DNA of 64,000 nt from Pseudomonas syringae (GTDB taxonomy: Bacteria > Pseudomonadota > Gammaproteobacteria > Pseudomonadales > Pseudomonadaceae), in contig NZ_CP066265.1 in NCBI RefSeq assembly GCF_023278085.1, positions 2,324,501 to 2,388,500 of the forward strand, written 5' to 3'. The translations under genes and the position numbers were made by a program. Numbering within the stretch: position 1 is the stretch's first letter; the number at the start of each line of letters is the position of its first letter. The notes under the pieces were generated by a model. It searched no databases and was not told the DNA's origin. It was given only the letters and a program-made list of their open reading frames with translations. Shown here piece by piece: positions 20,270-42,783 of the stretch.

Positions 20270-21217
20270 ATGACAGCCTTGATTTCATTGAGCGCGACGC
20301 CCGACGGTTCTGTGCAGGATGCTGCTTTGCAGAATAGCGGCGTGGCAATGCTCGAAATTCTCCACGGTTTGCATCAGGGCGTTGCCCTGACACTCGACAA
20401 GCCGGTGTATGTCATTGGCAGTGCTGCCTCGGCCGATCTGGTGCTGGGCGATGCCGGTATTGCCGCTCAGCATGCCCGCCTGCGCTTTTCTGATGACCGT
20501 GTTGCCATCGAAGCGATGGGCAACGATGTGACTGTGGTTGACGCTCTTGGTCAGCACCTGGTCATTAGCAAAGGGCATGGCCAGCGTCTTGGCCTGCCTG
20601 TGGAGTTGAAGCTCGGCCAGAGCCATGTGCGCCTGCGCAGTACTCGTCCTGCAACAGCTGCCTCTGCCGTACCCGGCGCACTGCGGGCGTTCAGGCTGCC
20701 CATGCTGGGTGCGCTGCTGTTGCTGGTGACGTGCGCAACTGCATTTGCCTTTCGCGCTCCGCCTGAGGCTGTTCACAACGCTGCCACCAATATGCCTCCA
20801 ATGGCTGTGCAGGTCGCTGCCCCTACCTTGGCCGAGGCCCGCAGCTGGCTCGATCAGGCGTTGCGAGATGCCCGGCTTGGCCAATTGCGCATCGAGGAGC
20901 AGGACGGCCAGCTCAGCGTGGCGGGCAGTTATCCGGCGGCACTTAAAAACAGCTGGTTACAGGTTCAGCGTGCATTCGACAGCCGTTTCGGCCAGCGCGT
21001 CGTGCTGACGCCCAACGTCCAGGTCAATGCCGCCGTTGCCACGCCGCGTGTGCGTTTGCAGGCCGTCTGGTTCGGGCGTAATCCTTATGTCATCGATGAG
21101 CATGGCAAGCGCGTTTATCCAGGGGCACTGCTGGCAGACGACTGGACGCTGGAACGCATCGAAGGCGATCAGGTGCACCTGGTGCGCGGTCAGGAACGGT
21201 TTGCCTTCACCTTATGA
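20270..21217 (+). CDS. sctD: T3SS inner-membrane ring protein SctD (YscD/HrpQ/Y4yQ type)
   Basis: 315 residues. A cytoplasmic FHA-like domain (about 25-115) precedes one membrane helix (about 142-163) and a periplasmic part with ring-building modules, ending in RGQERFAFTL. SctD forms the outer of the two inner-membrane rings, around SctJ. The order D-X-Y-V and overlap with the next frame (ATGA) support the assignment. A later ATG at 20336 is possible, but the upstream ATG gives the better FHA start. Confidence 0.8.
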   Translation: MTALISLSATPDGSVQDAALQNSGVAMLEILHGLHQGVALTLDKPVYVIGSAASADLVLGDAGIAAQHARLRFSDDRVAIEAMGNDVTVVDALGQHLVISKGHGQRLGLPVELKLGQSHVRLRSTRPATAASAVPGALRAFRLPMLGALLLLVTCATAFAFRAPPEAVHNAATNMPPMAVQVAAPTLAEARSWLDQALRDARLGQLRIEEQDGQLSVAGSYPAALKNSWLQVQRAFDSRFGQRVVLTPNVQVNAAVATPRVRLQAVWFGRNPYVIDEHGKRVYPGALLADDWTLERIEGDQVHLVRGQERFAFTL

Positions 21218-21573: not shown

Positions 21574-21908
21574 GCGCACTTCAGGAACGCGAATGCGTCG
21601 AGCTGCTGACCGGGCTCGGCAACCTGTACCGGCGCAGCGGCCAGCCGCAGCGGGCGCTGGTGATGCTGCTGATTGCCATACAGCTGGCGCCGACCGACAC
21701 CACGCTGCTGCACAGCCTGGTGCTGGCGTTCACTGACAGCGGTGACGCAGACCGGGCGCTCGCGGCACTGGACCGGCTGGTGGAACAGCAGGGCGAGAGC
21801 GCGTCGTTGCTTCTGCTGCGCAGCCGCGCGCTGTGGAAGGCCAGCCGCAAGGACGAAGCGCGGCAGTGCTTCAGACGTTATCTGGACGCCCGGAGGGCCA
21901 CACAATGA
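21570..21908 (+). CDS. sctY: SctY-like TPR chaperone (YscY type)
   Basis: 112 residues made of about three TPR-like helix pairs (LGNLYRRSGQPQRALVMLLIAIQLAP, then LVLAFTDSGDADRALAALDRLV, then SRALWKASRKDEARQCFRRYL). Length and repeat phasing match YscY, the cytoplasmic chaperone of YscX. ATGA overlaps tie it to the genes before and after. It could also correspond to the small TPR protein (y4yS) encoded near rhcV in rhizobial clusters. Confidence 0.65.
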   Translation: MSALQERECVELLTGLGNLYRRSGQPQRALVMLLIAIQLAPTDTTLLHSLVLAFTDSGDADRALAALDRLVEQQGESASLLLLRSRALWKASRKDEARQCFRRYLDARRATQ

Positions 21909-24055: not shown

Positions 24056-25368
24056 CCTGTTCAGTTAACGTGATTCGTCTGATTTTCCTTGCGCTGGGCG
24101 CTTTACTCATCGGCAGCGGTGCGAGTGCCGAGCAGATCGCCAAAGGGGCCAAGGGCACTGTCGATCTGGCGATTGGCGAGGGCCGGGTGCTGCATTTTTC
24201 GGCACCTGTGGATTCGGTGATGGTGGCCGAACCGGGGATTGCCGATCTGCAGGTGGTGTCGCCCGGGGTGATCTACGTGTTCGGCAAGACTGCCGGACAG
24301 ACCAGCCTGATTGCACTGGACAGCGAGGGGCGCGAGACCGCCACTTTGAGCCTCGCAGTCAGCAGCGGCACCGCTGCGGTGACGCGCCCGCTCAAGGCGC
24401 TGCATCCGCAGAGCCAGGCAAAGATCAACGCCAGCGGCAGCCGGGTGATCGCCAGCGGTTCAGTGCAGGACGTCGGCGAAGCGACCGACCTGAATGCCTT
24501 GCTGAGCACCGAGGGCCAGAACTTCCAGTCGACGGTCAACAGCGCCACCTACGCAGGCTCGGCGCAGGTCAATATCCGCGTGCGCTTTGCCGAAGTGTCG
24601 CGTTCCGAGTTGCTGCGCTACGGCGTGAACTGGAACGCACTGTTCAACAACGGCACGTTTTCGTTCGGGTTGCTGACCGGGGGCGCTCTGGCCGCCGATG
24701 CTGCGGGCGGCGCGTCGAATGTGATCAGCGCCGGGCTGGCGTCGGGCAACGTCAACATCGACGCGATGCTGGAAGCGTTGCAGAGCAATGGTGTGCTTGA
24801 AGTGCTGGCCGAGCCGAACATCACGGCCATGACCGGGCAGACGGCGAGCTTTCTGGCGGGCGGCGAAGTGGCCGTGCCGGTGCCGGTCAACCGTGAAGTG
24901 GTCGGTATCGAATACAAACCCTATGGCGTATCGCTGCTGTTCAGCCCGACGCTGCTGCCCAACGGCAGAATCGCCCTGCAAGTACGTCCCGAAGTCAGCA
25001 GCTTGATGAGCACCACCACGCTGGACGTCAATGGCTATCAAGTGCCTTCGTTCCGCGTGCGCCGCGCCGACACGCGTGTGGAAGTCGGCAGCGGGCAGAC
25101 ATTCGCCATTGCCGGGCTGTTCCAGCGTGAAAGCAGTCAGGACATGGACAAGGTGCCGATGCTGGGCGACATGCCGATCCTCGGCAATCTGTTCCGTTCC
25201 AAGCGCTTTCAGCGCAATGAAACCGAGCTGGTGATTCTGATCACCCCGTATCTGGTCGAGCCGGTCAAAGAGCGGGTGGTGGCAACGCCACTGGACAAGC
25301 AGCGTGCAGCCAGCACCGCGTCGGCCGGCCCCCGCAGTGGCGGCGCATTCGGCTTCTACATGAACTGA
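24052..25368 (+). CDS. sctC2: Secretin C-terminal half SctC2 (RhcC2), Tad/RcpA-like
   Basis: 438 residues with a signal peptide. The N-terminal module (about 28-105; VDLAIGEGRVLHFSAPVDSV, then VAEPGIADLQVVSPGVIYV and FGKTAGQTSLIALD) is the domain seen at the start of Tad/Flp pilus secretins (CpaC/RcpA). A BON-like stretch follows, then the secretin core with VNIRVRFAEVSRSE, VLAEPNITAMTGQTASFLAGGE, GQTFAIAGLFQR and PMLGDMPILGNLFRSKRFQRNETELVILITPYLV. It would form the outer-membrane pore. The T3SS-specific N0/N1 region is encoded separately (SctC1, 26761). Overlaps sctV by 4 bp. Confidence 0.9.
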   Translation: MTCSVNVIRLIFLALGALLIGSGASAEQIAKGAKGTVDLAIGEGRVLHFSAPVDSVMVAEPGIADLQVVSPGVIYVFGKTAGQTSLIALDSEGRETATLSLAVSSGTAAVTRPLKALHPQSQAKINASGSRVIASGSVQDVGEATDLNALLSTEGQNFQSTVNSATYAGSAQVNIRVRFAEVSRSELLRYGVNWNALFNNGTFSFGLLTGGALAADAAGGASNVISAGLASGNVNIDAMLEALQSNGVLEVLAEPNITAMTGQTASFLAGGEVAVPVPVNREVVGIEYKPYGVSLLFSPTLLPNGRIALQVRPEVSSLMSTTTLDVNGYQVPSFRVRRADTRVEVGSGQTFAIAGLFQRESSQDMDKVPMLGDMPILGNLFRSKRFQRNETELVILITPYLVEPVKERVVATPLDKQRAASTASAGPRSGGAFGFYMN

Positions 25369-26760: not shown

Positions 26761-27372
26761 ATGACCTGCTTTAAAGCTGAGTGGCGAGTATCGCAGCTGC
26801 TGTTACTGATACTGCTGTGTTCGTTGTCCGGTGCACTGAATGCAGCACCAGAGCACGAACCCGACTGGTTCGCCGAGCCTTATGCCTATGTGCTGGTGGA
26901 CCAGGATATTCGCGGCGCGCTGACCGAATTCGCGCAGAACCTCGACCTGATTGTGGTGTTTTCCGAAAAGGTCCGCGGCAATGCCCGTGGCACGGTGCGC
27001 GGCGCAACGGCCGGAGAGTTTCTCGGCCGTCTGTGTGATGCCAATCAGTTGAGCTGGTACTTCGATGGCAACGTGCTGCACATCGCCGGCGCTGATGAAG
27101 TCGGCACCCGCACCTTCGATTTGCAAGGTCCGCGACTGGCAGAGTTGCAGGATTATCTGGCGCGCCTGGAGGTGTCCGGTCAGCCGATGTCCAGTCGCGT
27201 CAGCCCGGATAACGACAGCCTGTTCGTGTCCGGGCCGCCAGCGTACCTGGCGCAGATTCAGCAACACCTTGATCGTCAACCTGTCGCCGAGGCCGCACCC
27301 GTTGTGCGTGAACGCGGTGTGCGGGTGTTTCGTGGCGGTGTCGTCACTCAAGTCGCCACCGACCGTCAGTAA
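26761..27372 (+). CDS. sctC1: Secretin N-terminal half SctC1 (RhcC1/NolW)
   Basis: 203 residues with a signal peptide (cleavage near ALNA) and the N0/N1 domains found at the start of T3SS secretins (YVLVDQDIRGALTEFAQNLDLIVVFSEKV, then GTVRGATAGEFLGRLCDANQLSWYFDGNVLHI). There is no pore domain. It corresponds to rhizobial NolW/RhcC1 and pairs with SctC2. The start follows AAGGAGG at good spacing, downstream of a weaker in-frame ATG at 26695. It begins the second plus-strand block, after a 175-bp gap that must hold its promoter. Confidence 0.85.
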   Translation: MTCFKAEWRVSQLLLLILLCSLSGALNAAPEHEPDWFAEPYAYVLVDQDIRGALTEFAQNLDLIVVFSEKVRGNARGTVRGATAGEFLGRLCDANQLSWYFDGNVLHIAGADEVGTRTFDLQGPRLAELQDYLARLEVSGQPMSSRVSPDNDSLFVSGPPAYLAQIQQHLDRQPVAEAAPVVRERGVRVFRGGVVTQVATDRQ

Positions 27373-27621: not shown

Positions 27622-28053
27622 ATGACCGTCAATCTAGCTGCGTCACCGGCGGCGGCAGCCTTGCCGACGCCGGGAGGAGGCGCGGGGCCGCAGGCTTCGC
27701 AGAACCTCTTCGAACACATGGCCGAGACGTCCAAAGGCATGCCGCAGGGGGCCAGCCCGCACCAGATCGGCAGCAACCTGATGGAACGTCTGGACGGCTT
27801 CATCGACCGCTCGCGGCAGTTTTCCGAGCGGGCCGACGCGCTGACCCAAGGCAACGCGCCGCAGGCGGCCAGTCAGGCACCGACACCTGCCACAACCGGT
27901 GGCCAGGCGACGAGCAAGGTCGGTGAGCCGCAGGTCGACCGTATCGTGCAGTCGTTGGGGCGGATGTTCGACTACTCCATCGAAACCCAGATGGTGGTGC
28001 GCGGGGCGACCCAGATATCCGGCTCTGCCAACACCCTTCTCAAAGGTCAATAA
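27622..28053 (+). CDS. sctI: T3SS inner-rod protein SctI (HrpB/NopB position)
   Basis: 143 residues. The Pro/Ala/Gly-rich N-terminus has no fold; the C-terminal helix (VQSLGRMFDYSIETQMVV then RGATQISGSANTLLKGQ) has the pattern shared by inner-rod proteins, which polymerise at the base of the needle. Position just before sctJ matches yscI-yscJ and nolB-nolT. Starts 9 bp after the 72-aa gene. Confidence 0.8.
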   Translation: MTVNLAASPAAAALPTPGGGAGPQASQNLFEHMAETSKGMPQGASPHQIGSNLMERLDGFIDRSRQFSERADALTQGNAPQAASQAPTPATTGGQATSKVGEPQVDRIVQSLGRMFDYSIETQMVVRGATQISGSANTLLKGQ

Positions 28054-28056
28054 ACC

Positions 28057-28836
28057 ATGTCCAAACGCTGCCGTGTTCTGCGCCTGTTGATCGTGGCGAC
28101 GCTTGCCAGTCTGTTGCAGGCCTGCGACATCGACCTCTACACCAACCTTGGCGAGCGTGAAGCCAATGCCATGCTGGCGGTGCTGCTGCGTGACGGCATA
28201 CCGGCGTCGCGCAAGGTGCAGGACAACGGCCAGCTCAAGGTGATGGTCGACGAAAAGCGCTTCGCCCAGGCCATGGCGGCGCTGGATGATGCCGGCTTGC
28301 CGGGGCAGAGCTTCTCCAACATGGGCGAAGTCTTCAAGGGCAATGGTCTGGTGTCGTCGCCGGTGCAGGAACGTGCGCAGATGGTCTATGCACTGAGCGA
28401 AGAACTGTCACATACGGTTTCGCAGATTGACGGCATTCTGTCGGCGCGGGTGCATGTGGTGCTGCCTGACAATGATCTGCTCAAGCGCGTTATCTCGCCG
28501 TCTTCGGCCTCGGTGCTGGTCCGTTACGATCCACGCACCGACATCAACGTGCTGATACCGCAGATCAAAACCCTGGTTGCCAACGGTATTTCCGGGCTGG
28601 GTTACGACGGTGTTTCGGTGACGGCCATCAAGGCGGTCATCCCCGACAAGGCCAGCGCCCAGCCGCAACTGGCGAGCTTTTTCGGGCTGTGGATGCTTGA
28701 GGAAGACGTGCCCGCCGCACGCTGGCTGTTCGGCACGCTGTTGCTGATCGCGCTGGTGCCGGCCGGGTTACTGGGCCGTCAGCTCTGGCAACGTCGCCGG
28801 GTCGAAGGCGCCTACGTCCTGAGTGATGCTCCGTGA
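28057..28836 (+). CDS. sctJ: T3SS inner-membrane ring lipoprotein SctJ (HrcJ/NolT)
   Basis: 259 residues. A lipoprotein signal with LLQAC is followed by two ring-building domains (DIDLYTNLGEREANAMLAVLLRDGI; then VYALSEELSHTVSQIDGILSARVHVVLP and ASVLVRYDP) and a C-terminal membrane helix near 225-245. It forms the lipid-anchored ring inside SctD. The next gene starts with GTG overlapping its stop. Confidence 0.96.
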   Translation: MSKRCRVLRLLIVATLASLLQACDIDLYTNLGEREANAMLAVLLRDGIPASRKVQDNGQLKVMVDEKRFAQAMAALDDAGLPGQSFSNMGEVFKGNGLVSSPVQERAQMVYALSEELSHTVSQIDGILSARVHVVLPDNDLLKRVISPSSASVLVRYDPRTDINVLIPQIKTLVANGISGLGYDGVSVTAIKAVIPDKASAQPQLASFFGLWMLEEDVPAARWLFGTLLLIALVPAGLLGRQLWQRRRVEGAYVLSDAP

Positions 28837-29453
28837 GCGCCGCGCTGACTGGCCAATGGCAGGCGCTGATCGAGCGTCCTCTGGCATTTGTTCGCGAGCA
28901 CTGGCTGGCCGAGTGCCTCAAACGCGATCTCGATGCCGCCACACTGGCCGCACTGCGCGATTCGTCACGCTTCAGCGCACGTGTCGAGCAACTGCTGACC
29001 GGGCATTTCAAGCTGCAACCTCTTGTGCAACTGGCCCGGCCTGCGCAGGAAGATCTGGCGGTTCTGCTGTTGGCCGATAACGATTTTTCGCGCTTGCCAC
29101 GCCTGTGCGGCGCAGTCTGGCATGCCGCCACGCTGAGTCGGGAAATCCGTGGCGATGTGGTCAGCGAATATCGCCAATTGCTGGGCGATGACGCGTTTTC
29201 GCTGGCGCTCGCGCAACGCCAGCTGGCCGGGGCCGCCAACCTGCTGCGCACGCCCGTCGAGCTGACGCAGGCTATCGACCGCGATGGCGCGGCCTGTTTG
29301 GCCGCCTGGCTGCATGCTCAGCCTGCGGAACTGCAAGCCTGGCTGCGCCTGCGCCTTGAGGTCGCAGAACCGCAGCAGGCGCACGATGAACGACAGGTAA
29401 ACGTGGTACGTACCGTCGCTCGTCTGCTGACAGGGAGCGACGACCATGAGTGA
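28833..29453 (+). CDS. sctK: T3SS sorting-platform protein SctK (HrpD/NolU)
   Basis: 206 residues, soluble, helical, Leu/Ala-rich. The GTG start overlaps the sctJ stop (GTGA) and its end overlaps sctL by 8 bp. Position J-K-L-N is diagnostic; sequence is poorly conserved in the family (HWLAECLKRDLDAATLAALR; ARPAQEDLAVLLL). It links the SctQ pods to the inner-membrane ring. Confidence 0.8.
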   Translation: MSAALTGQWQALIERPLAFVREHWLAECLKRDLDAATLAALRDSSRFSARVEQLLTGHFKLQPLVQLARPAQEDLAVLLLADNDFSRLPRLCGAVWHAATLSREIRGDVVSEYRQLLGDDAFSLALAQRQLAGAANLLRTPVELTQAIDRDGAACLAAWLHAQPAELQAWLRLRLEVAEPQQAHDERQVNVVRTVARLLTGSDDHE

Positions 29454-30042
29454 TCTGCCGACCCGACCTGCCTCACGCATACTGCGCGCTGCCGAGGCTG
29501 CTCAGTGGATCGACGGTTATGCCTTTGTCGAAGCCGCTCACCAGCAAGCCCGGTCGGTCCGCGAACACAGCGCGCAATGGCTCGAACAGGCCCGCGCCGA
29601 AGGTTTCGAACGCGCCCGCCAGGAGGGTGCCGAACAGGTGGCGACGCTGCTGGCGCAGACCCGCGCCGATGTTGATCGCTATCTGGCCGGGCTGGAAAGC
29701 TCGCTGGCTGAACTGGCGCTGGGGATTGCCCGTCAGGTACTCGGCGAGATGGATGATCGCGAGCGCCTGCTGCGCTGCACGGCAGAAGCACTTTCCGCGT
29801 TTCGTCAGGATCAGGCCCTGACGCTGTATGTGCCCCGCGCTGAAGTCGAAGGCCTGCGCCAGCATCTGGCGCAGGATGCGCCGCTGGCCCTGAAATCGTT
29901 GAGCATCGTAGGCGACGATCAGCTTGACGCCGGTCAGGCGCGGCTGGGCGGCCCGGCAGGCTCGGTTGAACTCGGGCTCGACGCGCAACTGGACAACCTG
30001 CGGCGTGCGCTGTTGCCACTGGCAGAAGGGGACACGCTTTGA
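29446..30042 (+). CDS. sctL: T3SS ATPase stator SctL (HrpE/NolV)
   Basis: 198 residues, homologous to FliH and to the peripheral stalk of F/V ATPases. The N-terminal helix is rich in Gln/Glu/Arg/Ala (QARSVREHSAQWLEQARAEG), followed by LALGIARQVLGEMDDRERLL and a C-terminal domain (DAGQARLGGPAGSVELGLDAQL). It connects SctN with SctQ and restrains the ATPase. It overlaps neighbours at both ends. Confidence 0.9.
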   Translation: MSDLPTRPASRILRAAEAAQWIDGYAFVEAAHQQARSVREHSAQWLEQARAEGFERARQEGAEQVATLLAQTRADVDRYLAGLESSLAELALGIARQVLGEMDDRERLLRCTAEALSAFRQDQALTLYVPRAEVEGLRQHLAQDAPLALKSLSIVGDDQLDAGQARLGGPAGSVELGLDAQLDNLRRALLPLAEGDTL

Positions 30043-31367
30043 ATGAAGCCCTGATGGCGCTGCTGCCTGATCTGCAACAACGCGTACAACTCGCCCAGCC
30101 AAGACCGATGCGCGGCACCTTGCGCAGTATTCGCGGCGTGCTGTTGCGTGCCAGCGTCGCCGGGGTGCGGATCGGCGAGCTGTGTGTGTTGCGCGATCCC
30201 GGGAACGGGCGAGAGCTGTCGGCCGAGGTGATCGGTTTTGATGAGGATGATGCAATCCTGTCACCCATTGGCTCGATGGAAGGGCTGTCGACCCGTACCC
30301 AGATCATCGCCACTGGCCAGGCGCTGGGTGTGCAGGTTGGCGATGCCTTGCTGGGCCGGGTGATCAGCCCGATGGGCGAGTTTCTCGACGGGCCTGCGCC
30401 GGTCGCGGCCATCGGCTTGCAGCGCTACCCGCTGCATGCCGAGCCGCCAGCGCCGTTCAGTCGCCAGCGCATCGTCAAGCCGCTGTCGCTGGGCGTGCGG
30501 GCGATCGACAGCCTGCTGACCCTGGCGCAGGGGCAGCGCATGGGTATTTTTGGCGAGCCGGGGGTGGGCAAGTCTTCTCTGCTGGCCAGTATTGTGCGCA
30601 ACAGCGACGCCGACGTGATCGTCATCGGGTTGATCGGCGAGCGTGGCCGGGAAGTGCGTGAGCTATTGGAAGGGCAACTGGATGCAATCGCGCGGGCGCG
30701 CACCGTTGCGGTGGTTGCCACCTCGGACCGGCCTGCCGCCGAACGCGTCAGGGCGGCGTATGTCGCGACTACGCTGGCCGAATACCATCGCGATCAGGGT
30801 CGCAATGTACTGCTTTTGATGGACAGCCTGACCCGCTTTGCCCGTGCCCAGCGCGAGATTGGCCTGGCAGTGGGTGAGCCGCCGACCCGACGGGGTTATC
30901 CGCCGTCGTTTTTCTCGGCCTTGCCGCGCCTGCTGGAGCGCGCCGGTCCGGGGCCTTCGGGCAGCATCACTGCGTTGTACACCGTGCTGACTGAAGGGGA
31001 CGCAAGCATGGACCCGGTGGCCGAAGAAACCCGCTCGATCCTCGACGGGCACATCGTGTTGAGCGCCGAGCTGGCGCAGCGTGATCACTTCCCGGCCATC
31101 GACGTGCTGCGCAGCCGAAGCCGTCTGATGGACCACATTGCCACGCCTGAACATCGCCAGCTGGCTTCGCGGATGCGTGAGTTGATCGCCCGGCGTCAGG
31201 AGATCGAGCTGTTGATTCAGGTGGGCGAATACGCCGCTGGCAGCGACCCGGTTGCCGATGAAGCGATTGCCCGTCATGCGGCGATAGAGGCATTTCTGCG
31301 TCAGCCCGCCGCCGAGCAAGACAGCCTGGAACAGACGCTGACGCACATGCGCAAGGTGCTGACATGA
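30039..31367 (+). CDS. sctN: T3SS ATPase SctN (HrcN)
   Basis: 442 residues, AAA/F1-beta-type ATPase that powers unfolding and chaperone release. Walker A (GEPGVGKSS) at about 172-180, ERGREVRELLEG near 201-212, Walker B (LLLMDSLTRFARAQREIG) near 258-275, and PPTRRGYPPSFFSALPRLLERAG after it. The listed start is TTG overlapping the sctL stop (TTGA); an ATG at 30054 is an alternative. Its stop overlaps a 28-residue frame. Confidence 0.97.
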   Translation: MNEALMALLPDLQQRVQLAQPRPMRGTLRSIRGVLLRASVAGVRIGELCVLRDPGNGRELSAEVIGFDEDDAILSPIGSMEGLSTRTQIIATGQALGVQVGDALLGRVISPMGEFLDGPAPVAAIGLQRYPLHAEPPAPFSRQRIVKPLSLGVRAIDSLLTLAQGQRMGIFGEPGVGKSSLLASIVRNSDADVIVIGLIGERGREVRELLEGQLDAIARARTVAVVATSDRPAAERVRAAYVATTLAEYHRDQGRNVLLLMDSLTRFARAQREIGLAVGEPPTRRGYPPSFFSALPRLLERAGPGPSGSITALYTVLTEGDASMDPVAEETRSILDGHIVLSAELAQRDHFPAIDVLRSRSRLMDHIATPEHRQLASRMRELIARRQEIELLIQVGEYAAGSDPVADEAIARHAAIEAFLRQPAAEQDSLEQTLTHMRKVLT

Positions 31368-31450
31368 GTGTGATTGTCAGTTCAGCGCGTGAACCCGGTC
31401 TCGATGCATTTACTGAGCGGATGCACTCCGCCATTGGAAAAGTCTTATGA
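31364..31450 (+). CDS. 28-aa micro-ORF exactly bridging sctN and sctO
   Basis: ATG at 31364 overlaps the sctN stop (ATGA) and its own TGA overlaps the sctO ATG (ATGA). The peptide begins MSVIVSSAREPGLDAFTER and ends with a short helix (MHSAIGKVL). Both junctions have the tight coupling used throughout this operon, and the frame fills the only gap in the sctN-sctQ stretch. It may be a real small protein, a leader whose translation delivers ribosomes to sctO (which lacks a strong Shine-Dalgarno), or the remnant of a larger gene. Confidence 0.45.
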   Translation: MSVIVSSAREPGLDAFTERMHSAIGKVL

Positions 31451-31941
31451 AAACGGCTGACTTGCACAGTCTGCAGGCCCTGCGGGTACTGCGCGAACAA
31501 CGCGCTGCGGCATGTCTTGCCGCTCAGCGCGAACGCTGTCGCGATGCCAATAGCGAGCTGGATCAGGCGCGTGAGGCGTTGCGTCTGCACCGTGAAAAAC
31601 TCGTTCAGGAAGCCGAGCAAGCTTACGGCCGGTTCAGCGAGGGGCTGTCGGTCAGCGCCTGGCGGGCCACTCAGGAGCGCTTGCAGCAACTGGATGACGA
31701 GCGTGCCGCGTTGCAGGCCAACGCCGAGGCAGTGGCGGTGACGCTGGAGACCGAAGAGCAGGCTCGGGAGCGGCTCCGGCAGGCCCATATCGAGCAGCAA
31801 CAGAAAACCAGAGCCTGGCAAAGCCTGGTAGAGCAGCGCGTGCGCAGCGATGCGCGCCTCGGCGAACAGCGCGATGAAGCCGATTTGCCAGCGTCTCCGC
31901 CCGGTGCGACTTCTTCGGCCGCATCCGGAAACGAGCCATGA
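31447..31941 (+). CDS. sctO: T3SS central stalk protein SctO (HrpO type)
   Basis: 164 residues, nearly all charged heptad-like helix: LRVLREQRAAACLAAQRERC, ELDQAREALRLHREKLVQEA and TEEQARERLRQAHIEQQQK. This is the two-helix coiled coil of SctO/FliJ, which sits in the SctN pore and contacts SctV. The position between sctN and sctQ is standard. The C-terminal 25 residues are Pro/Ser/Ala-rich. It overlaps sctQ by 4 bp. Confidence 0.88.
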   Translation: MKTADLHSLQALRVLREQRAAACLAAQRERCRDANSELDQAREALRLHREKLVQEAEQAYGRFSEGLSVSAWRATQERLQQLDDERAALQANAEAVAVTLETEEQARERLRQAHIEQQQKTRAWQSLVEQRVRSDARLGEQRDEADLPASPPGATSSAASGNEP

Positions 31942-32996
31942 CAGTGTTTGCCGGCCCCATCCCTGCGGGCGACTCCCGCACCGATGGCCTCAGCGCGCGA
32001 CTGGTGAAGTACGACGCCGACTCGCTGCCTCTGCATAACCGGCTGCACCGGCAGTTGGCGCCTTGGTCGATTGTGCTGGGCAAGCAGCCGGTGCAGGTGC
32101 TGTGGGCCAGCGGGGGCGGTGAGTGCCTGCAGCCGGTGCGTGTGGCAATCATGCTTGGCGCGAGTGAAATCGAGCTGGCGGTCCCGCTTCGACTGCTTGA
32201 ATTGTCTGGGCTGGGTTGGCAGCCTGGCGCTGCGATCGAGACCCAGGCCGACGCCTTGCTGCTCGAACAGGCCTGGCTGAGCTGGATAGAACCCTTGGAA
32301 ACGCTGCTGGGCGAATCGCTAATGGTGGTTCCGTGCTCGGCACGTGAGCTGCGCGGTGGCCTGAAAGTCGCGATTGAGGTGCGTCTCGTCGATTGCCCTG
32401 CGCAGGCGCTGGAAATGTACCTGCACGCTGACAGCGCCCGACGGGTAATCGAGCGGCTTGAGCAGCATGCTGTTGCGAAGCGCAACCCGCTGCAAGCGCT
32501 GCGTATCTCATTGAGTGTCGAAGCCGGTCAGGCCCCGTTGACCAGTGCCGAGCTGCGCAGCCTGCTGCCCGGCGACGTCGTGATGCTCGACACCCTGGCC
32601 GATGCGCACGTGCTGTTACGTCTGGGCCGTCACGGCCAGACCGTCGCCAGGCGTCAGGGTGACACCCTGATCTGGCAGGGAGCGTTACGCCCCGGCAGCC
32701 CCCAACTCCCTCCTTATACCTGCGACAGGAACGATCTGATGAGTGAAATGAGCACCGATGCCGATCTGGATGCCTCGCTGGACGAGTTGCCGCTGACCTT
32801 GGTCTGCCAGCTGGGCAGCGTGGAGCTGACGCTGGCGCAACTGCGCGAAATGGCCCCAGGCAGTCTGCTGCCGTTAACCAGCCTGGCGCATGACGAAGTG
32901 GACCTCATGGTCAACGGCCGCCGTATCGGTCGTGGCGAACTGGTGACCATCGGTGACGGTCTGGGCGTGCGTCTGCTCGGTTTCAGCGGCTCATGA
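31938..32996 (+). CDS. sctQ: T3SS C-ring/pod protein SctQ (HrcQ), unsplit
   Basis: 352 residues. A divergent N-terminal domain, a middle SpoA-like domain, and a C-terminal SpoA domain (about 270-350; PLTLVCQLGSVELTLAQLREMAPGS, then DLMVNGRRIGRGELVTIGDGLGVRLL). It builds the cytoplasmic sorting platform that receives substrates. In the main P. syringae Hrp system this gene is split into hrcQa and hrcQb; here it is one frame, but with a well-placed internal start (32739). Confidence 0.93.
   Translation: MTVFAGPIPAGDSRTDGLSARLVKYDADSLPLHNRLHRQLAPWSIVLGKQPVQVLWASGGGECLQPVRVAIMLGASEIELAVPLRLLELSGLGWQPGAAIETQADALLLEQAWLSWIEPLETLLGESLMVVPCSARELRGGLKVAIEVRLVDCPAQALEMYLHADSARRVIERLEQHAVAKRNPLQALRISLSVEAGQAPLTSAELRSLLPGDVVMLDTLADAHVLLRLGRHGQTVARRQGDTLIWQGALRPGSPQLPPYTCDRNDLMSEMSTDADLDASLDELPLTLVCQLGSVELTLAQLREMAPGSLLPLTSLAHDEVDLMVNGRRIGRGELVTIGDGLGVRLLGFSGS
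32739..32996 (+). other. Internal in-frame translation start giving a SctQ C-terminal fragment
   Basis: ATG at 32739 is codon 268 of sctQ and is preceded by GACAGGAACGATCTG, a Shine-Dalgarno-like AGGA at 8 bp. The 85-residue product would be exactly the last SpoA domain. Internal initiation producing a free C-terminal fragment is known for YscQ and SpaO, and HrcQb of the main P. syringae system is the equivalent separate gene. Confidence 0.6.
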
Positions 32997-33649
32997 ACGG
33001 TTACCAGCCGAATCTGATCGAAATAATTCTGGTCGTCGCCACCATTGGGCTGATCCCGCTGGCGGTGGTGACCCTGACCGGTTTCATGAAGATATCCGTG
33101 GTGCTGTTTCTGATCCGCAATGCGTTGGGCGTGCAGCAGACGCCCCCGAATCTGGTGCTTTACGGCATCGCGCTGATCCTTTCGGTCTACGTCACCACGC
33201 CTCTGATCGGCGACATGTACCGGCAGGTTGAGGGCCGCGATCTGAGCCTGCAGAATGTTCAGCAACTGGAGGAACTGGGCAGTGCCTTGCGACCGCCGCT
33301 GCAGGCGCACCTGTCGAAGTTCGCCAACGAGAGCGAGCGGGGCTTTTTCGTCCAGGCTACCGAAACCATCTGGTCACCCGAAGCGCGTGCCGACCTGCGT
33401 GATGATGATCTGGTGGTGCTGATCCCTGCGTTTGTCAGTTCCGAGCTGACCCGGGCCTTCGAGATCGGCTTTTTGTTGTACATCCCGTTTCTGGTCGTCG
33501 ATCTGCTGGTCTCCAACGTGCTGATGGCCATGGGCATGTCGATGGTCTCACCCACCTTGATTTCGATTCCGCTGAAGATTTTCCTGTTCGTGGCCCTCAG
33601 TGGCTGGTCACGCCTGATGCACGGCCTGATTCTAAGCTACGGGGGCTGA
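32993..33649 (+). CDS. sctR: T3SS export apparatus protein SctR (HrcR)
   Basis: 218 residues, FliP family, four membrane helices. Conserved blocks are LIPLAVVTLTGFMKISVVLFLIRNALGVQQ (residues about 18-47) and LIPAFVSSELTRAFEIGFLLYIPFLVVDLL with the following MGMSMVSPTLISIPLKIFLF. It forms the pentameric core of the export gate with SctS and SctT. The ATG overlaps the sctQ stop. Confidence 0.97.
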   Translation: MNGYQPNLIEIILVVATIGLIPLAVVTLTGFMKISVVLFLIRNALGVQQTPPNLVLYGIALILSVYVTTPLIGDMYRQVEGRDLSLQNVQQLEELGSALRPPLQAHLSKFANESERGFFVQATETIWSPEARADLRDDDLVVLIPAFVSSELTRAFEIGFLLYIPFLVVDLLVSNVLMAMGMSMVSPTLISIPLKIFLFVALSGWSRLMHGLILSYGG

Positions 33650-33652
33650 ATC

Positions 33653-33922
33653 ATGGGCCAGGACGTATTTCTCTCGTTGATGAATCAGGCGCTGATGACC
33701 GTGCTGCTGTTGTCTGCCCCGGCGCTGATCGTGGCGATTGTGGTGGGCTTGAGCGTGGGGCTGTTGCAGGCGCTGACCCAGATTCAGGACCAGACGCTGC
33801 CGCAGGTGGTCAAGCTGGTCGGCGTGCTGCTGGTGATCGTGTTCGTCGGCCCGTTGCTGGCGGGGCAGGTGGCCGAGCTGGGCAATCAGGTGTTGGACAA
33901 CTTTCCACTGTGGACCCGTTGA
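33653..33922 (+). CDS. sctS: T3SS export apparatus protein SctS (HrcS)
   Basis: 89 residues, FliQ family: two membrane helices around a charged loop (LLQALTQIQDQTLPQVVKLV). It completes the SctRST helical pore. Starts 3 bp after sctR. Confidence 0.96.
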   Translation: MGQDVFLSLMNQALMTVLLLSAPALIVAIVVGLSVGLLQALTQIQDQTLPQVVKLVGVLLVIVFVGPLLAGQVAELGNQVLDNFPLWTR

Positions 33923-33928
33923 GCTGTC

Positions 33929-34744
33929 ATGGGTGCTGACCTGACCAATGCGTTCATCGAAGTCGCCTATCCGGTGATCAGCTCCGCGTCGCTGGCAGCG
34001 TCACGGGCCATGGGCGTGGTGATCATTACACCGGCGTTCAACCGTCTGGGCCTGACCGGCATGATTCGCGGCTGCGTGGCGGTGGCGATCTCGGTGCCGA
34101 TGATCCTGCCGGTATTCTCCGCGTTCACGTCGATGCCCGAGCACAGCGGTTTTTCTCTTGCGGGGTTGATGATCAAGGAGCTGCTGATCGGCTTGCTGAT
34201 CGGGCTGTTGTTCGGTATCCCGTTCTGGGCCGCCGAAGTGGCAGGCGAACTGATCGACCTGCAACGCGGCTCGACCATGGAACAACTGGTCGACCCGTTG
34301 GGGCAGGGTGAGGCGAGCGTGATGGCGACATTGCTCACGGTCATGCTGATCACGCTGTTTTTCATGTCCGGCGGTTTCATCCTGATGGTCGACGGCTATT
34401 ACCACAGCTATCAGCTCTGGCCGGTGACCGAATTCACGCCGCTGTTCAGCAGTGCGGCCCTGATGTCCATTCTGGCGATTCTCGACCAGGTGATGCGCAT
34501 TGGCGTGCTGATGGTCGCACCACTGCTCATAGCGATGCTGATCACCGACCTGATGTTGGCGTACCTGTCACGCATGGCACCCAGCCTGCATATTTTCGAC
34601 TTGTCATTGCCGGTCAAGAACCTGTTCTTCTCGGTGTTGATGGTGGTCTACATCGGTTTTCTGATTCCGGTGATGATCGATCAGTTGGCACAGTTCCGCG
34701 GAACGGTCGAAGTACTCAAGGCCATGGCCAGCGAGGCACCCTGA
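33929..34744 (+). CDS. sctT: T3SS export apparatus protein SctT (HrcT)
   Basis: 271 residues, FliR family, about six to eight hydrophobic segments. Characteristic stretches are ASRAMGVVIITPAFNRLGL, GIPFWAAEVAGELIDLQRG with DPLGQGEASVMATLLT, and LSRMAPSLHIFDLSLPVKNLFF. It caps the SctRST pore and contacts SctU. The sctU ATG follows its stop directly. Confidence 0.96.
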   Translation: MGADLTNAFIEVAYPVISSASLAASRAMGVVIITPAFNRLGLTGMIRGCVAVAISVPMILPVFSAFTSMPEHSGFSLAGLMIKELLIGLLIGLLFGIPFWAAEVAGELIDLQRGSTMEQLVDPLGQGEASVMATLLTVMLITLFFMSGGFILMVDGYYHSYQLWPVTEFTPLFSSAALMSILAILDQVMRIGVLMVAPLLIAMLITDLMLAYLSRMAPSLHIFDLSLPVKNLFFSVLMVVYIGFLIPVMIDQLAQFRGTVEVLKAMASEAP

Positions 34745-35791
34745 ATGGGCGAATCCAGCGAGGAAAAAAGCCAGCCGGCCACGGACAAGAAGCTGCGTGA
34801 TGCGCGCAAGAAGGGCCAGGTCGCGAAAAGCCAGGACCTGGTTTCCGGCATGGTGATTCTGTTGTGTACGTTGTGCATTTCGGTCTTGTTGCCCAAGGCG
34901 CGGGCGCAGGTGGAGGCGTTGATCGACCTGGCGGCGCTGATCTACATCGAACCCTTCAACGAGGTCTGGCCACGGCTGCTGGATCACGCCGAGCAGATCG
35001 TCATCGGCATTACCTTGCCAGTGGTGGCCGTGACGGTCGGCGCGGTGATTCTGACCAATATCGTGACCATGCGCGGCGTCGTGTTTTCGGTCGAACCCAT
35101 TCAGCCGGACATCAAGCGGATCAATCCAGCCGAGGGTTTCAAGCGTATTTTTGCCATGCGGAACCTGATCGAGTTCCTCAAGGGGCTGGTCAAGGTGGTG
35201 CTGCTGGGGCTGGCGTTTTACGTTATCGGCCGCCAGGCCCTGCAAGCACTGATGGAGTCTTCGCGCTGTGGCGAAGGTTGCATCGAGTCGACGTTCTACC
35301 TGGTGCTCAAGCCACTGGTGTTTACCGTGCTGGCGGCGTTTCTGCTGGTTGGTGCTGTGGATGTGCTCATGCAGCGCTGGCTGTTTGGCCGGGAAATGAA
35401 AATGAGCCACAGCGAGCAGAAACGCGAACGCAAGGACGTCGATGGCGACCCGATGATCAAACGCGAACGTCAGCGCCAACGACGGGAAATGCAGGCACTG
35501 GCGACCAAGCTGGGCTTGGCGCGGGCGTCGTTGATGATCGGCGACGCTGGTGGCTGGGTCGTGGGGGTACGCTACGTTCGCGGCGAAACGCCAGTGCCGA
35601 TAGTCGTCTGCCGCGCCGCACCACAAGAGTCCGCAGCCTTACTGGCCGAGGCTGCACCACTGGGCATCGCCCTGTGGCCAGACGCAAGCCTCGCCGAGTC
35701 CATTGCCAAACGAAGCGTGGCAGGCGATCCTGTGCCGGAAAACACCTTCCAGGCGGTGGCCGATGCACTGGTGGCGCAGCGGCTGATCTGA
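34745..35791 (+). CDS. sctU: T3SS substrate-switch protein SctU (HrcU) lacking the NPTH motif
   Basis: 348 residues, FlhB family. N-terminal charged segment (KKLRDARKKGQVAKSQDL), four membrane helices, then the conserved cytoplasmic linker (KRERKDVDGDPMIKRERQRQRREMQ). Where the family has the self-cleaving NPTH motif, this protein reads DAGG (residues 267-270, bases 35543-35554), in unbroken alignment between LGLARASLMIG and WVVGVRYVRGETPVPIV. Asn is needed for cleavage, so this SctU is probably not processed and substrate switching must differ. Length is normal (about 350). It is the last gene of the plus-strand operon. Confidence 0.95.
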   Translation: MGESSEEKSQPATDKKLRDARKKGQVAKSQDLVSGMVILLCTLCISVLLPKARAQVEALIDLAALIYIEPFNEVWPRLLDHAEQIVIGITLPVVAVTVGAVILTNIVTMRGVVFSVEPIQPDIKRINPAEGFKRIFAMRNLIEFLKGLVKVVLLGLAFYVIGRQALQALMESSRCGEGCIESTFYLVLKPLVFTVLAAFLLVGAVDVLMQRWLFGREMKMSHSEQKRERKDVDGDPMIKRERQRQRREMQALATKLGLARASLMIGDAGGWVVGVRYVRGETPVPIVVCRAAPQESAALLAEAAPLGIALWPDASLAESIAKRSVAGDPVPENTFQAVADALVAQRLI

Positions 35792-38647: not shown

Positions 38648-39462
38648 GCTTAGACCTGTGTCAGAAGTAATAGCTGCGCCACCGCACCGTGCAGGAGCAT
38701 GAAGGTCCCGATCTGTGTCTGTGTGTTGATGCCTGTTCTGTGGATCTGCTGAAGCCAATGGACGTCCAATGGGTACGCTGCAACTAACCAGACGCCCCGA
38801 TTTATCGGGTGTGAGCAGATGATTGACCGCTGGCCTGGTTTAAAACGTCGACTTTCCGGCAAAGGGGAGAGTCTAGTGACACCAGATGACTGTTTAGAGA
38901 GCAATGCACAAATCGCGCCCATGTTAATTGACATCAACTGGCCGTCTGTTTGCGTACCGTTGGTCGGCTTACAGTGAATTTTTTACAAGCGTGGAGTTTG
39001 CAGGAACTGTTCTTTGCGCCAGTCGTTACAGAGCGCGCAGGTACCCTTTTTCAAAAGGGGGCATTTAGCGTTACCAGAAACTTAGTGCAGTTGATGAATG
39101 GTTAATCGAACTATCAATTATCGGCCTCTCTTCAAAGCATTGAGGGAAAGTGCCTGAATAATAATTAGTGTTACTGAATGTGTTTCCTTACCCGAGTGCG
39201 CACTTTATGAACAATCGCGTTGAGTGCCTATTCAATACTCCGGCTATCCGTTATTCAGCAACTCTTCCGGTGATGTCATCCCTTCTTAATGCAAAGCCGT
39301 TTTAATCAATCCCGATAGCGGACGCCTGACAGTTATCCAGGCTCCGCGCCTCTGCCTGCAAAGGCCCGGCTCGCACCCGTTCAATCCATGACAGCGCCGC
39401 TTTAGCTGTGCAGGCAGCGCTGTAGCGATGGAAGTTTCGGGTGACCAATGGAAGGAAAAACA
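38648..39462. other. 815-bp divergent intergenic region, AT-rich
   Basis: No believable gene. It must contain promoters for the NB-ARC regulator and the HrpK-like gene. The part 38940-39300 is AT-rich like 19500-19830, consistent with both belonging to the acquired T3SS locus. A palindrome CCCTTTTTCAAAAGGG lies at 39044-39059. I found no HrpL box and no TTTCACA pair. Confidence 0.5.
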
Positions 39463-42400
39463 ATGACGACTGTTAATAAGATCACCACTGAAAAACCCAC
39501 TAATCCAGCGGACGCCAAAGCCTGGGAACAGGCTGTACAGCAGTCCAGAGAGGTCGGTATCCAGTGGCAATTGCCTGACGACGACAAACGCTCTGCACAG
39601 CAAATCATCGACGACAGCCCATTGCTGAAAAATCTGGGCGGGCGCGGCGACAAGGGAGAGGCCAAGGAAAACCTGATTGCTCAGGTTGGCGACTACACCA
39701 AAGACTCCAACGCTGCGTTTCGTGCCGTGCAACTGCTCGAACACATTGAAACCTTCGATGCCAACGGCGACCGTCTGGCGGGCAAGGACATCGGTAACAA
39801 TCGCATTGACGGCTACACCAGCAGCAGCGATGCCAGACACGGCACAGAGGCCGGTCGTCTGAAGGATTTCGGCAAGGACGGATTTTCGAGCCTCAAAGGC
39901 AAACTGCATGAAACAAGATCCGCCGCCAACGACTCTGCCACCCGCGAGCAGGCCGAGAAACTGGGCATCCATTGGGAGCGTCCGGCAGGTGATGAAAGGG
40001 ACGCCAGGAGCATTGTCGAAGGCGATCCCTTGCTCCGGAATCTGGGTAATCAGAGTGACGTCAGGGACATGCTGAAAGAGCAGGTCGGCGATTTCGATAA
40101 CGACGCTGACGCCGCCTATCGTGCCACTCAGGTGCTGGCGCATATCGAACAGTTCGACGGCAACGGTGCGCGGATTGTCGGCGGTGACGTCGCCAACGGC
40201 AGCATCAATGGCTTCACCAAAAGCGGCGAGGCCCGCAACGGCACTGAAGCCGGCCGGTTGCAGGATTTCGGCAAGGACGGCTTTTCCAGTCTCAAGGGCG
40301 AAATGGCCAATGTGTCAGTCGCCGGTGACAACACGCAGACTCGCGAGCAGGCCGAAAAGCTCGGCTTTATGTGGGAGCTGCCCAAGGATGACCAGCGCTC
40401 GGCTCAGGACATCATCGACGCCAATCCGCTGCTCAAGAATCTCGGTAACCAGAGCGGCGTCAAGGACATGCTCAAAGAGCGGGTCGGTGATTTCGAAAAG
40501 GATGCCAACGCTGCGTTTCGCGCCGCTCAGGTGCTCGACCGGGTGACGATGTACAACGAGAAGGGCGAGATCCAGTCAGGCGGTGATGTGTTCAACAGCC
40601 GCGTCGATGGTTTCACCAAAGGCGCCGAGGCCAGACATGGCACCGAGGCTGGCCGCTTGCAGGACTTCGGCAAACTGGGCTTCGATGCGTTGCCCGAACT
40701 GAAGAAAAGCGAAGACATCAGCAGCTACAAGGATTTTCTCAAGGCCAACCCCGACGCAGATGACGCCTCGAAGCAGATCGCCCGGTACGCCGCGATCCTC
40801 GACGAAAACCATGACGCGATCAAGGGCAAGACCGGCTCGAAGAACATGAACGCCGAAGCGCTGGCGGCCTATAAGGACAAGAACCCGCAGCTCGACAAAG
40901 AGGTCAAGGAGGCGCTGGATTTCTGGTCGCAACCCGGTGCCTTTGCGTTGCTGGATAACGCCAAAAGCCCGCTTGAGCAAGGCGCCGATGGCAAGGCCAG
41001 TCGTGCTGATATTCAGGCTTTCATCAAGACTGCCTCCCCGAAAGACGTCGGTGCGGTCGGCACGCTGCTGGAAGTCGTCGCCGAAGGCAACCTGCTCAAC
41101 AAGGTCAATACCGACGCGCTCAACAAGGACGTGTTCGATAATCCGCAAAACTACACCGCCGAACAGAAGGCTGCCGTTCTGCAGGAACTCAAGGCTGCAC
41201 AAAGCCTGATCGTCAAGGGCAGTGGCACTGGCATGTGGAAGGATGACAAGTCCCAGGTGCAGATTGCCAACAATGTGCGCAGCCATCCTGACGCGCAGAA
41301 GCTGCTCGATGACGTCAACGAGCACATCGCGACGCTCGAAAAAGACCCTGCAGTGGTCAAGTTCTACAACGAGAACGCGACCAGTGAATTGAGCAAGGTG
41401 CTGGAGGGCAGCGAGGGCCTGAAAAACGCACTGCAAAGCACCTACGACAACGACATCAAGACCGGCAAGGCACTCGACACGCTGTGGGACGCCAATACCA
41501 AGGACGGCAAGACTGATCAGCAGACCGCACTGGCGCAATTCTACAGTTCGGCGCAAAGCGTTCAGGAATCACTGGGCGTGAGCAACCCGAGCGAAATTCA
41601 GGCAGCCGTGCAGAAGTCCACCCACAACAAGGATTTCGAATCGTTCTATGAAAAATCCCTGGTCTCGGGTGAGCGTCTGAAAGAGCTGCTCAAGACCGAA
41701 AGCTTCGAGGTGGCAACCAGCCAGTTCAGCATGGAAGTGGCGATGTACAACGCTGCGCTGAACCCGGAGTTCACCAATAAGTTCGATGACGCCGCCACCA
41801 AAAACTACACCGATATCGCGCAGGATAACGTCTTCAAGGATGCCAGTTTCGATGACCTGAAGACGGCTTTCGGCGTTGATGGCGGCGATACGCTGGACGA
41901 GGCGAAGGTCAGGTCACTGATCGATCAGGTTGCCGAGAGCAATCCCGAATTGTTAATGAATGCCGACGGCAAGCCTGCCACCTCCGACCAGATTTTGGGG
42001 GTGTTCAGAGGCAATTGGGATCTGCTGCGCCAGGGCACCAAGTCGATTTCCGAGTTGGGCCTGTTCAGCAAGGATTCTTCGATCAAGGCGGCGTCCAATG
42101 CGGGTGTCCTGCATGGTGTCAGCGGCCTGTTCATGGCCGGTATCACCATCGCCAAGGGGGCCAGCGGCGCGGGTGCTTTGACTGATCGGCAGGTCGTCGA
42201 CATCACTACCGGCTCGGTGCAAAGCGCCACCTTGCTGGTTGAAGGCGGCGTCAAGCATTTCACCGACAAGTTCAAAGCCGTTAAAGACACCGCCAACCCG
42301 TCCGCCTATGCCTACATCACCAGCAATCTGTCGAAACTGGAAAACGCCGCCAAAGGCCTTGGCGGACTGGCCGGTGTGGCTGCCGGGGCTTATGGCATCT

Positions 42401-42783
42401 TCGATGGCGTGAAGTCGATCCGTAAAGGTGAGCTGGTGGCTGGCGGCATGAGCATCACTGCGGGCTCACTGGGTGCAATGGCTGGCCTGGCGTCAGCAGC
42501 CGAAGGCGCGGCCGGCGTCTTCCAGCTGACAGGCAGCGTAGTTCGCGCCTTGCCACTGCTGGCGGGCAGCCTGGGGATTGCGGCCGCCGGAATAGGCGCG
42601 CTGGCCATGTTGATTCCAGGTTTGATCGAGGAGGGCAAGCAGGAGACCCGCGTCGACCGTTTCTCCGATCATCTCAGGGACTACCTGACCCAGTACGAGA
42701 TCGATGGCGTCAAGGACGGCACCATCATGGACATACCTGACAGCGAGTGGCCGGGGCCGGAGGAAACCACCATCGCCTCTTGA
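39463..42783 (+). CDS. HrpK/HrpF/NopX-like type III translocator with three ~131-aa repeats
   Basis: 1106 residues. Three N-terminal repeats (about 29-148, 161-280, 293-410) each contain REQAEKLG.xW, a D..R.A..I....PLL.NLG block, QVGDF and an FD.NG...GGD....I.GFT loop ending HGTEAGRLQDFGK. A long polar helical region follows, then a hydrophobic Gly/Ala C-terminus (about 950-1065; LAGVAAGAYGIFDGVKSIRKG) resembling the HrpK-like protein at 15843. No signal peptide, as for T3SS cargo. Imperfect N-terminal repeats plus C-terminal hydrophobic segments are also seen in Xanthomonas HrpF and rhizobial NopX translocators. I chose the ATG at 39463, 6 bp after GGAAGGA; the ATG at 39448 overlaps that site. 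Confidence 0.7.
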   Translation: MTTVNKITTEKPTNPADAKAWEQAVQQSREVGIQWQLPDDDKRSAQQIIDDSPLLKNLGGRGDKGEAKENLIAQVGDYTKDSNAAFRAVQLLEHIETFDANGDRLAGKDIGNNRIDGYTSSSDARHGTEAGRLKDFGKDGFSSLKGKLHETRSAANDSATREQAEKLGIHWERPAGDERDARSIVEGDPLLRNLGNQSDVRDMLKEQVGDFDNDADAAYRATQVLAHIEQFDGNGARIVGGDVANGSINGFTKSGEARNGTEAGRLQDFGKDGFSSLKGEMANVSVAGDNTQTREQAEKLGFMWELPKDDQRSAQDIIDANPLLKNLGNQSGVKDMLKERVGDFEKDANAAFRAAQVLDRVTMYNEKGEIQSGGDVFNSRVDGFTKGAEARHGTEAGRLQDFGKLGFDALPELKKSEDISSYKDFLKANPDADDASKQIARYAAILDENHDAIKGKTGSKNMNAEALAAYKDKNPQLDKEVKEALDFWSQPGAFALLDNAKSPLEQGADGKASRADIQAFIKTASPKDVGAVGTLLEVVAEGNLLNKVNTDALNKDVFDNPQNYTAEQKAAVLQELKAAQSLIVKGSGTGMWKDDKSQVQIANNVRSHPDAQKLLDDVNEHIATLEKDPAVVKFYNENATSELSKVLEGSEGLKNALQSTYDNDIKTGKALDTLWDANTKDGKTDQQTALAQFYSSAQSVQESLGVSNPSEIQAAVQKSTHNKDFESFYEKSLVSGERLKELLKTESFEVATSQFSMEVAMYNAALNPEFTNKFDDAATKNYTDIAQDNVFKDASFDDLKTAFGVDGGDTLDEAKVRSLIDQVAESNPELLMNADGKPATSDQILGVFRGNWDLLRQGTKSISELGLFSKDSSIKAASNAGVLHGVSGLFMAGITIAKGASGAGALTDRQVVDITTGSVQSATLLVEGGVKHFTDKFKAVKDTANPSAYAYITSNLSKLENAAKGLGGLAGVAAGAYGIFDGVKSIRKGELVAGGMSITAGSLGAMAGLASAAEGAAGVFQLTGSVVRALPLLAGSLGIAAAGIGALAMLIPGLIEEGKQETRVDRFSDHLRDYLTQYEIDGVKDGTIMDIPDSEWPGPEETTIAS
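39547..40693 (+). repeat. Three tandem protein repeats (~131 aa, ~395 bp each)
   Basis: Repeat blocks of the HrpK-like protein. Copies 2 and 3 are closest. DNA is still clearly alike at the block ends (for example CAGGATTTCGGCAAGGACGG in copy 2 and near-copies in 1 and 3), so these repeats are younger than those in the 15843 protein. Confidence 0.8.

Follow-up and report, generated by a model that had tools for sequence, protein, structure and literature searches.

Loss of the Asn-Pro self-cleavage site and of the neighbouring LARxLY tyrosine in SctU proteins of the Rhc clade of type III secretion systems, traced from a Pseudomonas syringae locus

Cleavage of the export apparatus protein SctU at the motif Asn-Pro-Thr-His (NPTH), called ‘strictly conserved’ in PMC2615192, is described in PMC3040844 as one element of the transition to late substrates in type III secretion. 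The stretch of Pseudomonas syringae DNA analysed here, referred to as the window (64,000 nucleotides; contig NZ_CP066265.1 of assembly GCF_023278085.1, positions 2,324,501 to 2,388,500 of the forward strand), carries at 20.3-35.8 kb the second type III secretion system (T3SS-2, or Rhc-II) cluster described by Gazi et al. 2012 (PMC3574062), and the SctU encoded at the end of this cluster has other residues in place of NPTH. Does such a system switch between early and late substrates by a different mechanism, or does it not switch at all? The question touches one left open in PMC3973906, namely whether rhizobia possess an undiscovered SctP or need no such control. The features of sctU on which the argument turns are the following:

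34745..35791, + strand: sctU (hrcIIU/rhcU type), 348 amino acids (aa), intact; PF01312, E 8.9e-73
35531..35572, + strand: codons 263-276, predicted strands 263-266 and 272-276 around the altered loop; AlphaFold2 model and Foldseek
35543..35554, + strand: codons 267-270, Asp-Ala-Gly-Gly (DAGG) replacing the NPTH self-cleavage motif; codon reading and alignment columns
35690..35707, + strand: codons 316-321, Leu-Ala-Glu-Ser-Ile-Ala in the place of LARxLY; column counts

Codons 267-270 read GAC GCT GGT GGC, and thus Asp-Ala-Gly-Gly stands where relatives have NPTH, as an earlier note on this DNA had claimed. The same note held the change to be a true substitution and not a frameshift, and alignment with FlhB and SctU proteins agreed with this, as the query was gap-free at the loop and the conserved flanks remained in register. 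The PF01312 (Bac_export_2) match spans residues 6-342, i.e. the whole length of the protein. The score of 267 bits against TIGR01404, the NCBIfam SctU model, did not reach the curated cut-off of 358 and illustrates how models built on cleavable SctU under-score Rhc proteins. Two SctU paralogues in the same genome both carry NPTH; one of them clusters with FlhB in the tree, and the other is taken as the HrcU of the Hrc1 system from its location beside HrpJ and a T3S4 match. Judged by its residues, canonical Asn-Pro self-cleavage at SctU 267-270 is ruled out.

The AlphaFold2 model of SctU, built from 112 rows, had a mean predicted local distance difference test score of 85.2, with the block 261-270 at 93, and showed long membrane helices at 30-67, 71-109, 138-175 and 178-217 in addition to the C-domain. 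Foldseek matched the model to the YscU and EscU C-domains (best E 4.8e-6). The top matches were mostly uncleaved mutants, which is expected for a single chain and is therefore uninformative on the function of SctU.

The contig is a chromosome of the P. syringae complex; SctU identity was 98% to the P. cerasi copy and 97% to the P. tremae copy. A homologue search with the window SctU yielded 1068 matches at E <= 0.001, the best 120 of which, at 75-97% identity, were aligned, and NPTH was present in 0 of these 120. The earlier note had reasoned that NPTH in all close homologues would indicate a local mutation; the opposite was found. Nor is DAGG fixed among the relatives, as had been considered: over the 121 rows including the query, the loop read IGGN in 61, TGGG in 5, SAGG in 5 and DAGG in 2 between conserved flanks, and the loci of P. 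tremae and P. cerasi likewise read DAGG. A match of at least 55% identity was found in 39 of 398 Pseudomonas genomes, and 0 of the 33 loop sites read among these had Asn-Pro. Between the window SctU and the P. cerasi copy there are 107 synonymous and 6 non-synonymous differences (ratio of non-synonymous to synonymous differences per site, pN/pS, 0.019). Over 34 distinct Pseudomonas coding sequences the corresponding ratio of substitution rates (dN/dS) was 0.166 for the gene, 0.109 for residues 217-266 and 0.210 for residues 271-348; for the loop codons it was near-neutral at 0.666, a figure that rests on four codons and on non-independent pairs. The variability is not unique to the loop, since for non-synonymous change the window of four codons at 267 takes 12th place among 345, behind windows at 295-314, and residues 295-314 vary as much. 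The coding sequences thus indicate a SctU protein kept by purifying selection while its former cleavage loop is drifting. Intact length, purifying selection and the lack of NPTH among the homologues eliminated a pseudogene, a frameshift and a local mutation as candidates. A SctT-SctU fusion, which long open frames in genomes G037, G044 and G043 might suggest, was likewise discarded, SctT lying in a different frame.

The loss extends far beyond Pseudomonas. With RhcU of the Sinorhizobium NGR234 T3SS-1 (Rhc-I) as query, 112 proteins were found; Asn-Pro was missing from 101 of them, and the 11 that carry NPxH were the lowest-scoring ones, at 22-32% identity. Across 398 genomes of the phylum, 28 places matched at E <= 1e-60, of which 14 carry Asn-Pro; those without it are the query, 12 Rhc-like loci and one divergent locus (L095). 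The combined set, with loci L011 and L055 left out, comprised 443 distinct rows, of which 276 lacked Asn-Pro, 37 were truncated and 130 carried Asn-Pro (118 as NPTH, 12 as variants). FastTree placed 312 of the 313 rows without Asn-Pro in one clade. Asparagine at 267 was found in 0 of the 275 distinct full-length rows of this Rhc clade, NGR234 RhcU included; outside it, Asn-Pro was present in 130 of 131 rows, among them FlhB and the Hrc1-type HrcU of this genome, the exception being Leisingera. Hence NPTH cannot be called universal, as it had been in the earlier note; its description of the window SctU as uncleavable stands as far as canonical Asn-Pro cleavage is concerned, yet is not peculiar to this protein, the whole Rhc clade sharing the loss. 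In a more careful tree of 59 rows, from which the loop columns were removed, the 35 Rhc rows formed a clade at 100/100, and 27 Rhc-II rows, the window SctU included, grouped with the T3SS-2 of NGR234b at 98/98. Leisingera SctU formed a long branch outside the Rhc clade in this tree. A single clade of Rhc and Leisingera was not rejected by the approximately unbiased test (p 0.182), and therefore one ancestral loss of Asn-Pro suffices; two separate losses, in Rhc and in Leisingera, are not established by that test.

Elsewhere in the C-domain, Asn-Pro occurs in 66 of the 275 Rhc rows, at positions 235, which lies in the linker (56), 328 (17), 313 (4), 332 (1) and 252 (1). As it never lies at the loop and asparagine is missing at 267, an alternative asparagine chemistry at the loop was dropped as an explanation. 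Three further observations concern single replicons. The Leisingera plasmid T3SS (L077, L111), with its SctU without NPTH, is either related to Rhc, though divergent, or the result of a second loss. A quite different SctU on a Bradyrhizobium japonicum plasmid (L074) has NPTH and falls outside the Rhc clade. On a megaplasmid of Halomonas sp. PA16-9 (L011, 12001-13031), a SctU of 55% identity lies in two frames, and its C-terminal part is without NPTH.

In Rhc-III the site has gone together with the sequence around it. Of 144 proteins found with Rhizobium etli RhcU the best 120 were taken, 119 of which were new; 82 of these had NPxH, 34 end before the site and 3 were divergent without NPxH. All 34 listed proteins of at least 40% identity to R. 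etli RhcU (40-94%) stop before the site, at lengths of 219-279 aa, the shortest (219 aa) possibly being a partial gene. R. etli-type RhcU thus belongs to the same clade and likewise has no cleavage site, differing from the window SctU in that it ends before the CC half. Within less than 1 kb downstream of sctU, no CC remnant was found in two of three Rhc-III loci, and the third gave one 19-residue match (E 0.88). The three genes compared had pN/pS values of 0.32-0.39 and are therefore not free-drifting.

A second element of the C-domain changed along with the loop. The LARxLY helix adjoins the NPTH loop in structures (PMC2615192, PMC3040844), and the window SctU has LAESIA in its place. Among the rows with Asn-Pro, position 321 is tyrosine in 84 of 130 and tyrosine, phenylalanine or histidine in 121, and position 318 is arginine in 126. 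The rows without Asn-Pro have tyrosine at 321 in 0 of 276, phenylalanine or histidine in 7 and arginine at 318 in 67; in the Pseudomonas Rhc-II rows, duplicates included, 127 of 128 have alanine at 321. According to PMC3040844, changes of this very tyrosine (HrcU Y318D, YscU Y317D, FlhB Y323D) restore late secretion without the ruler, and HrcU Y318D shows less cleavage and abolished binding of the ruler HpaC. These mutants and the Rhc proteins are alike in the position changed, but the former are laboratory changes to aspartate in cleavable proteins, whereas the Rhc proteins are without NPTH.

The third partner in this control is the ruler SctP, which PMC3973906 reports as identified in no rhizobial species; likewise, PMC3574062 gives an hrpP/yscP-like gene as absent from every Rhc subgroup. 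A search of this genome with the PF02120 profile, which is weak for HrpP-like rulers, gave no match in the T3SS-2 cluster, in keeping with the earlier note, which had recognised no SctP there. Three matches were obtained: one lies 4.7 kb upstream of flhB, another, which scored below the cut-off, 2.9 kb upstream of the Hrc1-type hrcU, and the third at 3361425. Between sctO and sctQ there is no hrpP/yscP-like gene, as the sctO-like gene (31447-31941) overlaps sctQ at 31938. With the same weak profile there was no match on four rhizobial T3SS plasmids (both of NGR234, and those of E. adhaerens and Phyllobacterium) or on the Leisingera plasmid, where sctO likewise abuts sctQ; the matches in P. alliivorans (2), P. 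fluorescens H24 (2), G043 (2) and G570 (1) were on contigs other than those of the NPTH-less sctU. For the gatekeeper SctW, one PF07201 match was found in this genome, at 3989877 near Hrc1-type genes; the four rhizobial plasmids had none, but no control matched either, so that absence of SctW does not follow.

The window locus agrees with the P. syringae T3SS-2 of PMC3574062 in gene content, split secretin and Y4yQ-type SctD as well as in having no hrpP-like gene between sctO and sctQ. That paper puts SctU in the Rhc clade, and in its main text the words ‘cleavage’ and ‘switch’ do not occur and the site is not discussed. NGR234 T3SS-1 RhcU, with 35-37% identity to the window SctU and a loop region one residue shorter, lacks both NPTH and the LARxLY tyrosine as well, and Rhc-I clusters have been shown to be functional (PMC3973906). 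Cleavage at the NPTH site is therefore no general requirement of type III secretion. YscU, EscU, HrcU (Hrc1, Hrc2) and FlhB share with the window SctU the PF01312 domain, four long membrane helices and the C-domain fold; they differ in retaining Asn-Pro, as in all but one row outside Rhc, and in working, per the papers cited, with a SctP/FliK ruler.

On balance, we think it probable that the SctP-SctU switch was dismantled at the base of Rhc, leaving an uncleaved SctU that is permanently late-permissive and independent of a ruler. Under this explanation the Asn-Pro loop, the LARxLY tyrosine and a recognisable SctP ruler would all have gone in one ancestral event. Rhc SctU would remain a single chain, its C-domain folding as in YscU and EscU and the loop forming a short variable turn. 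The C-domain would always admit late substrates without a ruler, comparable to the LARxLY tyrosine changes in YscU, FlhB and HrcU; it is proposed in PMC3040844 that a conformation of SctU, and not the cut itself, is what the switch requires. Export of early and late substrates would then proceed through one gate with no committed switch between them, and any order would be set by expression and chaperones; the Rhc-III proteins have lost the CC half altogether. That Rhc SctU is uncleaved in the cell and in a late-permissive state is what we infer from these comparisons. The wider proposal, that Rhc injectisomes are naturally switchless, having abandoned the early/late hierarchy once at the Rhc root, with the C-domain fixed as late-permissive in Rhc-I and Rhc-II and discarded in Rhc-III, is plausible and falls somewhat short of probable.

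Several points weigh against this reading. According to PMC3040844, late secretion in Xanthomonas is aided by HrcU cleavage, and a deletion of HrcU residues 265-357 abolishes the export of both early and late substrates; consequently, the Rhc-III form could be dead or else strongly adapted and very different. Most Rhc rows have Ala, Ile, Leu or Met at 321, whereas the mutants studied in other systems carry Asp, and an aromatic residue or histidine is likewise missing there from 9 of the 130 Asn-Pro rows. The PF02120 search is insensitive, since it left the presumed HrpP of this genome below the Pfam cut-off and found nothing on the P. alliivorans contig with a second, 28%-identical SctU, and it is therefore quite possible that a diverged Rhc ruler was missed. 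As the loss represents one event (or two), co-loss is beyond statistical test. Among the Rhc subgroups, function is reported in PMC3973906 for Rhc-I only, and the literature searched held no biochemical data on any Rhc SctU.

Of the alternatives, the one that survives best, and which we consider possible but distinctly unlikely, is that the switch was kept with another mechanism, the uncleaved Rhc SctU changing conformation upon binding a regulator specific to Rhc, which could be a small protein encoded beside sctV, a tetratricopeptide repeat (TPR) protein or a diverged ruler. Purifying selection on residues 271-348 of Pseudomonas Rhc-II SctU and the conservation of G274, Y277 and P285 in nearly every Rhc row imply that the Rhc C-domain does something. 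Moreover, PMC3973906 names a rhizobial-specific SctP analogue as one possibility, and a 119-aa gene (21214) and a TPR gene (21570) adjoin sctV; the insensitivity of the ruler search also speaks for this alternative. Against it stand the loss of the LARxLY tyrosine in Rhc rows and the missing CC half in all the listed Rhc-III proteins, and from these two losses we lean towards no switch over a different switch.

We regard it as improbable that a different protease, or cleavage of a different bond, still produces the two-chain state of SctU in the cell. Variability and a high glycine content, both of which the loop shows in this group, would suit a tolerated cut site, and cutting in trans is compatible with the data; the loop has no conserved pattern, though (entropy ranks 3, 161, 11 and 30 of 348 for positions 267-270), and the Asn-Pro pairs elsewhere in the C-domain are never family-wide. 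Decay of a non-functional P. syringae T3SS-2, in which the motif simply drifted, appears very improbable: in some pathovars hrcIIN and hrcIIV are split according to Gazi et al. (PMC3574062), but the core genes tested in the window are open over their full length, sctU shows strong constraint relative to P. cerasi, and Rhc-I, although reported functional, shows the loss as well. That this strain carries a local mutation or a sequencing error, for which no supporting point was found, can practically be discounted given the homologues and the agreement of other genomes.

The loss on the SctU side of the switch provides direct sequence evidence on the question of SctP in rhizobia raised in PMC3973906, and NGR234 RhcU is a natural test case for the switch question. 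The absence of SctP in Rhc systems is already known. The literature searched, with many subscription papers and all bioRxiv preprints outside its scope, held neither a mention of missing NPTH or a missing LARxLY tyrosine in rhizobial SctU nor an experiment deciding between a different switch and none in Rhc; an earlier report elsewhere of an NPTH-less rhizobial SctU is possible.

The cluster, the role of which in P. syringae is given as still uncharacterised in PMC8780523, comprises the following genes upstream of sctU; one gene downstream of sctU is listed with them:

20270..21217, + strand: sctD with rhizobial Y4yQ C-terminal domain; PF23893 E 5.5e-16, PF16697 E 2e-14
21833..24055, + strand: sctV, start codon not settled; TIGR01399 764 bits, over cut-off
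24052..25368, + strand: C-terminal part of split secretin (hrcIIC2 type); TIGR02516 positions 233-462, 80 bits, under cut-off
26761..27372, + strand: N-terminal part of split secretin (hrcIIC1/nolW type); TIGR02516 positions 2-134, 78 bits, under cut-off
27622..28053, + strand: nolB-like; PF17398 E 0.04, under cut-off, and position
28057..28836, + strand: sctJ; PF01514 E 5.8e-25
28833..29453, + strand: NolU/SctK-like, by position only; no T3SS family match
29446..30042, + strand: sctL; TIGR02499 69 bits, under cut-off 78.7
30039..31367, + strand: sctN ATPase; TIGR02546 591 bits, cut-off 605 missed; TIGR01026 over cut-off
31447..31941, + strand: sctO-like, by position; weak FliJ/YscO matches under cut-off, none in NCBIfam
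31938..32996, + strand: sctQ; TIGR02551 115 bits, over cut-off
32993..33649, + strand: sctR; TIGR01102 265 bits, over cut-off
33653..33922, + strand: sctS; TIGR01403 76.7 bits (cut-off 76.5); TIGR01402 (fliQ) 77.4, under its own cut-off
33929..34744, + strand: sctT; TIGR01401 211 bits, over cut-off
39448..42783, + strand (downstream of sctU): HrpK1/HrpF-like putative translocator, 1111 aa; PF16937 E 3.2e-20

The secretin is encoded in two genes, a trait of Rhc-II, the two parts matching different portions of TIGR02516. Two small open reading frames on the + strand, 19986-20147 (53 aa) upstream of sctD and 27394-27612 (72 aa) upstream of the nolB-like gene, had no Pfam match and are candidates for pilin, needle or rod subunits. 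Next to the cluster, an open frame of 1211 aa (15843-19478, − strand) matched neither Pfam nor NCBIfam. Directly after sctU lies a gene for a 976-aa winged-helix/AAA regulator (35828-38758, − strand), and a phytochrome-type kinase gene (43320-46316, − strand) is found further on; the HrpK1/HrpF-like protein encoded between these two is perhaps the translocator of T3SS-2.
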